Of a stretch of 64,000 nucleotides of DNA, positions 39,862-43,952 are shown piece by piece (position 1 is the first letter of the stretch; every line of letters begins with the position of its first letter). This stretch comes from Carnobacterium alterfunditum DSM 5972 (GTDB taxonomy: Bacteria > Bacillota > Bacilli > Lactobacillales > Carnobacteriaceae): assembly GCF_000744115.1 (NCBI RefSeq), contig NZ_JQLG01000004.1, positions 868,001-932,000 of the forward strand, given 5' to 3'. Both the position numbers and the translations under genes were made by a program. The notes beneath the pieces were generated by a model, which was not told where the DNA came from, did not search any database, and saw only the letters and a list, made by a program, of their open reading frames with translations.

Positions 39862-40302
39862 ATGGCAAAAGAAACATTTCGTGCAGTAGCTCAATCAATG
39901 GGTGGAATGAAAGTTTCATGTACATCAAGGAATTTTGAATTTATTTTAGATGAACCAAAAAATTTAGGCGGATCAAATGAAGGAATGAATCCGGTAGAAG
40001 CTTTATTATCCTCTCTTGGGGCATGTAAAGTTATTGTAGCTCAGTCTTTCGCTAAAGCGCATGGCATAAATTTAAACGATATCCGTGTAGAAATAGATGG
40101 AGTATTAGATCCTGATGGTTTTATGGGGAAAAATAAAGCAGCTAAAATAGGCTATTCTGCAATCGTTTCTAAATTTTATATTAAAGCTGATAATACTGAT
40201 GAAGAAATTTCAGATTTTATCGCTTTTATCGATCGTACTTGTCCAGTAGCTGATACTATTAAAAATGCACCTAAGACTGAATCAGAAATCCATAAATTAT
40301 AA
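39862..40302 (+). CDS. OsmC-family protein
   Basis: 146 residues. Peroxide-reductase fold with the two redox cysteines, Cys55 in SSLGACKVIVAQ and Cys127 in DRTCPVADTI. Members reduce organic hydroperoxides or act on other thiol-reactive compounds. AGAGGAGG precedes the ATG. A second OsmC gene lies at 58006 and a decayed copy of this gene's 5' region at 41765. Confidence 0.9.
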   Translation: MAKETFRAVAQSMGGMKVSCTSRNFEFILDEPKNLGGSNEGMNPVEALLSSLGACKVIVAQSFAKAHGINLNDIRVEIDGVLDPDGFMGKNKAAKIGYSAIVSKFYIKADNTDEEISDFIAFIDRTCPVADTIKNAPKTESEIHKL

Positions 40303-41900: not shown

Positions 41901-42074
41901 GAAAGAATATTTACCTGGAGAACTAACAGGTGGTGTGAGTACTGTTGTAAAAGGAGATGCATATAGAGTTTATTAGCATTTATTTTTGCACATATTAGAT
42001 CAATCCTTATGCTTCAAAAAATACAATTCAATTAGTAGTAGCTACAATTTAGATTGTCCTTATTTGAAAAAAGA

Positions 42075-42352
42075 GTGCTCCCAAATAATTGGCTCTTCGT
42101 CAAATGGTATGGATACTTCAAAATAAAATTTCTTCTGGAATGGACGGGTTTGCTTGTGGAGCCATTGGACCGCTTGTAAGCCTGTAGTTTTACAGACTTT
42201 CAAGCTTCAAACAAAACATAATCGCTAAAGCGCCAACGTTTTGTAATTCTCATTGAATCTTACACATGGCTACAAGCAACCCTATTCCTCCAGAAATTTT
42301 GGGTAAGTAATTCGATTAAATCTATCAACACTAAAAATTATAGAACCAAATA
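42075..42352 (-). repeat. Structured repeat element A (about 250-280 bp, inverted with respect to B)
   Basis: On the minus strand, TTCTATAATTTTTAGTGTTG leads to AAATTTCTGGAGGAATAGGG and TTGCTTGTAGCC. After about 110 divergent bases comes GGCTCCACAAGCAAACCCG, then CCAGAAGAAATTT. The two conserved ends are complementary, and the middle has a strong hairpin (GCTTG, AAG, CTGTA pairing). Matches element B at 43641. Could be a MITE, a structured RNA or remnants of a coding sequence. The wider 41900-42587 gap has no supported gene. Confidence 0.6.
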
Positions 42353-42587
42353 ATTTTTGAAGTACTCTTTCTTAGTTTATAGGAATATTTATAAACTTGC
42401 TGATTCCTTATTCATTTTATCAGGACATCCTATATTTAGTACTAACAAATTCTATTTCCCGTTTTTACTGCGCTGAGTATGGTAAAATCAAAGCACTATT
42501 ATTGGTTAAAAAACAGCTTTTATTTGGTAGAAAAATCAAGAAAATCAGTAGATTTATAAAACACTTTATTTAAAGGAGGAAAACAAA

Positions 42588-42935
42588 ATGAAAGCTGCAA
42601 AAATCGTTGCATGGATTTGCTTGCTGGCTATGACAGCCGGATTGGTTAATGCATTCGTAAATGGGGATTTTTTGGTTGACGGTGGAACATTACTCGAAAA
42701 TCCATGGGGAATCATGTCTATGATCGATCTATACGTAGGATTCACCCTATTTTCAATATGGATCGTCTACCGGGAAAAAACTATGTGGAAAACCATCATC
42801 TGGGTTGTCACAATGATGATATTTGGTTTTTTCATAGGCAGTATTTATGTTTTAAAAGCACTGTATGAGTCAAAAGGAGACTGGTCAGTCGCTTTCCATG
42901 GCGTACAGAGGAGTGTTAGTGATGGAGAAAATTAA
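42588..42935 (+). CDS. DUF1475-like membrane protein
   Basis: 115 residues, three or four helices. NPWGIMSMIDLYVGFTLFSI and WIVYREK are the recognisable stretch, fitting DUF1475 (a helix carrying Asp then Trp-x-x-Tyr-Arg-Glu). AAAGGAGG precedes the ATG. Overlaps the next gene by 14 bases, so the two are translationally coupled. Function unknown. Confidence 0.6.
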   Translation: MKAAKIVAWICLLAMTAGLVNAFVNGDFLVDGGTLLENPWGIMSMIDLYVGFTLFSIWIVYREKTMWKTIIWVVTMMIFGFFIGSIYVLKALYESKGDWSVAFHGVQRSVSDGEN

Positions 42936-43590
42936 AGAGTGGCTAGAACAACTTTCACTTGTATTTGAGAAAAAAACAATCGATGCTCTCTTCCCCCCGT
43001 TGATATTTTTTCTAGCTAATCAGTTCCTGTCTCTTGAGCTTGCTAGTGGGGTAACCCTGCTTTACCTGCTTCTCGTCATCCTATATAGAATAATTAAAGG
43101 TCATACAAAAAAATACGTTCTAGTTGGCGTAGGAGGTGTCTTGCTTTCTATTGGATTTAGTTTATTGTCTGGAGATGCAATCAATTATTATCTTCCAGGT
43201 TTAATTACAACAAGCCTGATTGTCATCGCATGCGTTGTGTCTCTTGTTATTCGCCGCCCAATGGCCGCTTTGTTGAGTCATTTAACCAGAGGATGGCCAA
43301 TCGAATGGTACTTGCGAGACGATATTCGTCCTGCTTATCGAAACGTCACGATAATGTGGGCTGCTTATTTTATGCTCCGACTAAGCATACAAGTTCCGCT
43401 ATTTTTAATGGGCGAATTCGCGATTTATTTTTATATCAATTCTATTTTGGGTTGGCCGATGACTATAATTCTCCTTATTTCCACTTATGTATTAGGAATT
43501 AAAGGTCTGAGAAAATTATCAGGTCCAAGCGTTGAAGAATTTTTAAACGGAAAAAAACCTCCTTTTGAAGGCCAGAAAAAAGGGTTTTAA
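42922..43590 (+). CDS. DUF3159-like membrane protein
   Basis: 222 residues, about six helices. LFPPLIFFLANQFLSLELAS, a conserved RGWPIEWYLRDDIRPAYRNV loop, and a C-terminal VEEFLNGKKPPFEGQKKG tail resemble DUF3159 proteins. ATG 42922 lies inside the end of the upstream gene; a longer frame from 42865 would overlap it fully and lacks support. Partner of the DUF1475-like protein; role unknown. Confidence 0.65.
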   Translation: MEKIKEWLEQLSLVFEKKTIDALFPPLIFFLANQFLSLELASGVTLLYLLLVILYRIIKGHTKKYVLVGVGGVLLSIGFSLLSGDAINYYLPGLITTSLIVIACVVSLVIRRPMAALLSHLTRGWPIEWYLRDDIRPAYRNVTIMWAAYFMLRLSIQVPLFLMGEFAIYFYINSILGWPMTIILLISTYVLGIKGLRKLSGPSVEEFLNGKKPPFEGQKKGF

Positions 43591-43605
43591 CATAGCCTCC
43601 ATATT

Positions 43606-43638
43606 AAAAGCACGTATCTCAAGCGATACGTGCTTTTT
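43606..43638. terminator. Terminator after the two-gene membrane operon
   Basis: AAAAGCACGTATC / GATACGTGCTTTTT. A near copy occurs at 43902. Confidence 0.85.
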
Positions 43639-43640
43639 CA

Positions 43641-43895
43641 AGGTCTATAATTTTTGGTGTTAATAGATCAGTTGATCACTTACTTGAAATTTCTGGCGGA
43701 ATAGGGTTGCTTGTAGCCTAAAATGAAGCACTGTGGGCAAATATCGCCCAAGTGTATCATGTTTGTAAGCTGCTAAAGCAGCAACAACCATGACAACTTC
43801 CTTTTAGGCTTCAAGCTTTCCCATGGCCACACAAGCAAATCCGTTTTTCCAGAAGAAATTTCTTTTGAAACACCAATACTATTTGACGCAGAACC
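43641..43895 (+). repeat. Structured repeat element B
   Basis: Begins TCTATAATTTTTGGTGTT, then AAATTTCTGGCGGAATAGGG, TTGCTTGTAGCC, and ends GGCCACACAAGCAAATCCG, CCAGAAGAAATTT. Inner pairings: GCCTAAAATGAAG with CTTCCTTTTAGGC, CACTGTGGGC with GCCCAAGTG, TCATGTTTGT with ACAACCATGA, GCTGC with GCAGC. Together they give a branched fold. Flanked by two copies of the same terminator. Confidence 0.6.
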
Positions 43896-43901
43896 TATAT
43901 T

Positions 43902-43936
43902 AAAAGCACGTATCTTAAGAGATACGTGCTTTTTTT
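43902..43936. terminator. Second copy of the terminator, upstream side of DUF2177 gene end
   Basis: AAAAGCACGTATC / GATACGTGCTTTTTTT; shares its flank ATATTAAAAGCACGTATC with the copy at 43606, a direct repeat bracketing element B. Confidence 0.85.
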
Positions 43937-43952
43937 GATTGCATTTTTTTAT

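Follow-up and report, generated by a model that had tools for sequence, protein, structure and literature searches.

The window, by which we mean the whole stretch of 64,000 nucleotides analysed here, carries two short elements, A and B, that flank a two-gene DUF1475/DUF3159 pair in inverted orientation. Both are intergenic: A has a small minus-strand reading frame on one side and the pair on the other, and B lies between the pair and a convergent DUF2177 gene. The original prediction had seen there two inverted elements of about 250 bp with complementary ends, and this description holds. Inverted repeats, 44, 33, 25 and 20 nt long and 82-92% identical, link A to B, and the ends pair with each other within each copy, with folding z scores of -5.58 for A and -6.24 for B (for each copy, none of 200 shuffles folded as well). 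The duplicated terminator noticed around B was also found again, while the limits of the elements had been drawn too narrowly, the true ends lying further out, at 42091-42347 for A and at about 43642-43895 for B. The features are as follows.

42083..42090, no strand: target duplication of A, AAATAATT, 8 bp; present once in the empty site of the related genome G004
42091..42347, minus strand: putative MITE copy A, type 2, with module M2; 257 nt, limits from its ends and the perfect target duplication
42099..42179, minus strand: 3' arm of A (nhmmer)
42136..42289, minus strand: structured core of A, predicted stems P1-P4 (covariance model R1, 160.2 bits, E 6.3e-38; A is itself among the 50 sequences that built R1)
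42268..42340, minus strand: 5' arm of A (nhmmer)
42348..42355, no strand: target duplication of A, AAATAATT, 8 bp, second flank (flank reading and strict-rule set)
43606..43637, no strand: terminator-like hairpin, first copy, upstream of B (repeat comparison; a single copy in G004)
43642..43895, plus strand: putative MITE copy B, type 1, with module M1; about 254 nt, first base uncertain by one
43647..43718, plus strand: 5' arm of B (nhmmer)
43720..43797, plus strand: module M1 of B, two predicted hairpins (model R2, 108.6 bits; B is itself among the 23 sequences that built R2)
43806..43887, plus strand: 3' arm of B (nhmmer)
43902..43933, no strand: terminator-like hairpin, second copy, downstream of B (repeat comparison)

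In the plus-strand reading, the right end of A, GGCTCTTCGTC, begins at 42091 and its left end, ...TATAGAACC, finishes at 42347. Somewhat before A, the segment 41856-41897 reads MAYETFRAVAKSI followed by a stop; by eye it resembles the start of the 146-residue frame at 39862-40302 (MAKETFRAVAQS...) and looks like a gene remnant.

A family with exchangeable middles

A and B belong to a large family. In their own genome blastn returned 60 matches to A and 58 to B, fragments counted, and the covariance model R1, which describes the A type, has at least 80 places at E <=1e-3, all on contig C4, among which are fragments and type-1 copies caught via their arms. This number is a lower bound, since 150 of 1098 first-look candidates were scored; the same is true of the searches through the order, where 10 to 16 candidates per genome were scored under stricter filters, so that genomes may be missed. 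Pairing of arm profiles on the stretches around the matches gave 74 copies with both a 5' and a 3' arm, some of them standing head to tail (for example at loci L020, L029, L031, L033 and L036).

Both arms are common to all copies. Between them lies M2 (the case of A), M1 (the case of B) or a combination: L028 holds M2 and M1 together, L068 has M2 with a third module, M3, and L079 adds to these an M1 nested within M3. Among 108 paired copies from all loci, a few of them counted under two locus names, 62 have M2 only and 38 M1 only. M3 is itself structured (GACCCGAATCACTGG ... GTGGACGTCGGGTC and like forms) and often holds M1 (L068, L079, L098-L101, L113, L151-L153). The diverged yet still structured middles of the original prediction thus need rewording: there is structure, compensatory changes are seen in additional copies, and the two middles are unlike because A carries one module and B another. 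Alignments were made of 50 of the 53 eligible type-2 copies and of 28 of the 33 type-1 copies.

Searches of plasmid records gave no DNA match to B, to M3 with M1 or to M1, phage records gave none to A, and the exact M1 pattern occurs 0 times in viral contigs. The entries listed for open-access papers (PMC3733652, PMC10969869, PMC4133298, PMC2864571 and PMC9208149 among them) report no such family in Carnobacterium, and no open-access paper was found that combines 'Carnobacterium' with 'miniature inverted-repeat'.

Ends, target duplications and empty sites

The genome has 18 matches to the ISL3 transposase profile PF01610, and 16 of these span it in full. The resident insertion sequence (IS), as read in four fetched copies, is 1500 bp long and has a 439-aa open frame; the other three of these copies are 99.7-100% identical to the first over at least 1500 bp. 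Its left end is GGCTGTATAATTTTTGGTGTGG and its right end, on the reverse strand, GGCTCTACGTCAAATGGTGTGG, and the target duplication is 8 bp in all four copies read. Two nested insertions were seen: the ISL3 IS has entered a second copy of itself within its left end (L144, 1389-2888), and it has entered a MITE copy (L022, about 1728).

Set against this IS, A is identical at 17 of 19 positions at the left end and 22 of 24 at the right, and B at 15 of 15 and 15 of 18, with equal polarity throughout; the right end of B taken alone is a weak match (E 0.55). By these alignments A and B preserve the two unlike ends of the resident ISL3-family IS, in unchanged polarity. Past the ends, blastn between the IS and the inside of the elements gives chance-level matches only (E >=0.16).

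The flanks of 53 near-complete copies show the element ends as GGnTCTATAATTTTT ... GTAGAACC, with short direct repeats directly outside. A strict two-end rule bounds 16 of the 74 copies, leaving out 58, B included; identical 8-mers flank seven of the 16, six more agree at 7 of 8 positions and three fall below. Flanking 8-mers that agree at 7 or more positions are therefore seen in 13 of 16 copies, to be compared with 2.7% of shuffled pairs. In A and most of the strictly bounded copies the duplicated 8 bp are A/T-rich, as they are around the IS. The duplication of A, AAATAATT on the plus strand, is perfect on both flanks. At the flanks of B no 8-bp target duplication was found. It is the whole terminator-like hairpin that stands there twice (43601-43637 and 43897-43933), a duplication of about 37 nt, not 8; one may speculate that staggered cleavage through a hairpin in extruded form would leave a duplication of that length.

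The related genome G004 has the DUF1475/DUF3159 pair at 93% identity, in surroundings that align in blocks of 88.5% and 92.1%, and there the sites of A and B are both empty. Its A site shows a single AAATAATT, which lies in a predicted hairpin (-12.7 kcal/mol), across the loop and the inner stem, so that A is a clean 8-bp insertion; it interrupts a predicted hairpin, which need not be a terminator. The B site of G004 has one terminator-like hairpin (-18.9 kcal/mol). A further copy, L014, has its orthologous site empty in four of five relatives (L170-L173); in the fifth, G004 (L169), an element lies beyond the same terminator in the opposite orientation.

When genes are called mechanically, 53 of 72 copies have on their 3' side a gene that points toward them, and 39 of 74 have on their 5' side one that reads toward them, which fits a placement at the 3' ends of genes. 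Terminator-like hairpins stand beside many copies, as judged by eye on the flanks, without a count.

The sequence features by which a MITE is recognized are present: the elements are short and have no open frame, their ends are like those of an IS, their target duplication has the 8-bp length of that IS (B excepted), and orthologous sites are empty. By their ends and target duplications A and B look like gene-less miniature transposons, which was one of the options that the original prediction had listed.

The conserved fold and the module M1 across genomes

The core modelled by R1 is laid out as a closing stem P1, followed by P2/P3 and then P4. Its conserved letters are GYGAAUUA before P3 and UUUGAR after P3, both in the junction, GAG and GGCUC in P4, and CGGU past P4. 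In the alignment of 50 type-2 copies (A1, 45 pairs), 96.2% of cells are paired and 20 pairs have changed on both sides, with a covariation of 0.204 versus 0.097 in shuffled and at most 0.061 in slid controls. The alignment of 23 matches from 20 loci outside the genus (A6) has 94.1% of cells paired, double changes at 35 of 39 pairs and a covariation of 0.699 versus 0.181 shuffled and at most 0.098 slid; having been fitted to the model, it leans toward structure, and it counts in one spurious reverse match (L196:295). Compensatory changes, the mark of a structured RNA family, thus exceed shuffled and slid controls alike. The original prediction had named such changes across further copies as a test of itself, and it is in those copies that they are found.

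R1 has matches in at least 11 of 18 genomes of the taxonomic family. At the level of the order they occur in at least 27 of 295 genomes, across 15 of 74 genera, and at that of the class in at least 5 of 398, two of which lie outside the order and are marginal. G-U cells outnumber A-C cells by 83 to 24, and outside the genus by 19 to 12, a weak excess counted with the spurious reverse match L196:295 left out. The wobbles suggest that it is the plus strand of the element that folds, a suggestion that is weak outside the genus. The direction of the upstream gene makes no difference to the wobbles (G-U to A-C 23:11 versus 27:9).

Rfam 15 has no family at gathering score anywhere in the window. A permissive search of 42050-43950 gave 11 matches, all below gathering. 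None of them falls on A; B is touched by four, of which three lie at its 3' end and on the terminator that follows, and one, Atu_C9 (E 0.0038), at the terminator that precedes it; they were taken as chance. Of the 20 loci with a core outside the genus, 15 went through the permissive search, with 10 weak matches, none overlapping the core. A conserved structure with no Rfam family at gathering score agrees with the structured RNA that had been proposed as one option; judged from these alignments, the inside of the element is an RNA-like domain conserved by evolution, and not IS sequence.

The module M1 has a distribution of its own. Its model, R2, finds matches across the order in at least 37 of 295 genomes; in one genome (G167) eight copies of equal score lie on different contigs, and the three fetched are identical. 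Its contexts were read in 40 loci hand-picked among the R2 matches listed, all but L115 outside family f1; related operons among them are not independent. In these loci 62 M1 matches were placed (E <=1e-4), 28 by tRNA genes, seven before 5S rRNA and 27 elsewhere, sites inside the third module included; the 5S gene of L103 and the tRNA gene of L165 were identified by eye. Beside tRNA genes M1 is antisense to the tRNA in 28 of 28 cases, and in 24 of them no more than 5 nt separate the 3' ends of module and tRNA; beside 5S rRNA it stands in sense, directly before the gene, in 7 of 7. The tRNA operons with M1 include L103, L106, L107, L110, L111, L112, L114 and L117, and it precedes 5S rRNA in L102, L105, L106, L148 and L150; one spacer has M1 in L110 and L117 and is without it in L111 and L114.

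The covariation of M1, in an alignment fitted to its own model, is 0.366 versus 0.165 shuffled, and its number of pair types does not exceed that of the shuffles (210 of 500). Once six named rows and duplicate rows are dropped, the copies of tRNA operons have, read on the M1 strand, nine A-C wobbles versus one G-U in 17 rows, a small set of related copies; an A-C excess on the M1 strand means G-U on the tRNA strand. Copies by rRNA genes have one of each and the others none. Rfam, run on 30 of the 40 loci, found only rRNA and tRNA families.

In other genomes the link between core and ISL3 ends is uneven. Two loci, L195 and L196, from two other genera, have core copies with GGTTCT ends and perfect 8-bp target duplications (TATCTTTC and AGGAGTTG, respectively); the right end is loosely ISL3-like in L196 and ISL3-like in L185 and L186. 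Several core copies of family f4 (L178-L183, L187, L189) show, by eye, no evident ISL3 ends. Genomes G001 and G004 have at least 86 core matches each, G013 at least 24 and G008 at least 7, all without any PF01610 match; in G002 (at least 11) and G009 (at least 51) the PF01610 matches are partial only. Conversely, G010, G014, G015 and G016 have PF01610 matches, and no core match was found in them. With copies lacking transposase and transposase lacking copies, element and transposase pair poorly outside the source genome.

Explanations and known systems

We read A and B as non-autonomous miniature elements of ISL3 type with a conserved fold inside, M1 standing in its stead in B, and give this reading a probability of roughly 0.85. 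The transposase of the resident IS would bind the element ends and would move the elements in trans, the target presumably being A/T-rich DNA, often (as judged by eye) hairpins or T-runs after genes.

A free-standing family of structured RNA genes, a regulator or something ribozyme-like, for which ISL3 ends would be a late vehicle in some Carnobacteriaceae, is the most serious competitor, possible though rather improbable. The spread of the core through 15 genera of the order speaks for it, as do loop letters kept while the stems change, several f4 copies without evident ISL3 ends and the many carrier genomes without transposase; against it, the many dispersed copies, some in tandem, and the empty sites are what a repeat shows. 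A palindromic repeat of the BOX or EFAR kind, spreading by itself and resembling ISL3 ends by chance, has a very small probability: its modular mosaic build recalls both, yet ends identical to the IS at 15 of 15 and 22 of 24 positions, in equal polarity, and an 8-bp target duplication equal in length to that of the IS would be much to ask of chance.

The two remaining readings fall to direct evidence. That A and B bound a composite mobile unit carrying DUF1475/DUF3159, as the original prediction had envisaged, was suggested by their inverted placement around the pair, which was not found in G001, G002, G003 and G005; it is ruled out by the G004 locus, where pair and neighbours are present with both sites empty, so that the pair is not cargo, and A, besides, carries its own target duplication. 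Still less probable is a decayed protein gene, to which the codon-like conservation at the 3' end of A had pointed. Short codon-like runs do occur in the 3' arm, but all six frames are closed in each of 56 copies (225-255 nt), stops summed over these copies number 253-292 per plus frame, and the arms differ by one-base length changes; a decayed gene was rejected.

The ISL3-type miniature element remains our preferred reading, and it bears on how such elements are seen. MITEs usually pass for remnants of an IS; here the cargo is a fold whose loop letters have persisted as many lineages changed its stems, which calls for a function and offers many natural copies on which to test one. We would tentatively propose, at clearly less than even odds, that the fold is selected as part of the element, most likely as a folded transcript at gene 3' ends that would make insertions tolerable. 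With a little more assurance, still short of even odds, we would propose that a Lactobacillales RNA family outside Rfam is the cargo of ISL3-type miniature transposons and has been invaded by the 75-nt M1, which would enter at the feet of stable RNAs (tRNA 3' ends and the 5S rRNA 5' end included) and be maintained as RNA from either strand, depending on which one is transcribed. The exchangeable middle, together with M1 beside tRNA and 5S genes, suggests that small structured modules traffic between repeats and stable RNA operons.

Among known systems, Rfam 15 families resemble the core in having a conserved, covarying fold, none of them reaching gathering score in the window. The ISL3 family is marked by ends starting with GG and by 8-bp duplications. 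The A/B family has GG-starting ends, 8-bp duplications and ends like those of the resident copy; unlike an ISL3 IS it is without transposase, and it has only about 20 nt per end in common with it. In the BOX elements of Streptococcus pneumoniae outer modules pair around exchangeable middles, a build that A and B match by description, not by sequence. EFAR repeats assemble their modules variably and target hairpins, and in both respects the likeness is again one of description and not of sequence. These repeats of Enterococcus faecalis are named as MITEs in one source (PMC3733652); in distinction from them, the A/B family shows 8-bp target duplications and an IS with like ends. Finally, IS-derived MITEs of bacteria, according to a review (PMC10969869), are short, gene-less and intergenic, with terminal inverted repeats, target duplications, stable stem-loops and an IS with like ends. 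All the features so described are common to the A/B family, which differs in what it has inside, a fold shared across genera, with its loop letters and compensatory changes, and a middle that can be exchanged among M2, M1 and M3.
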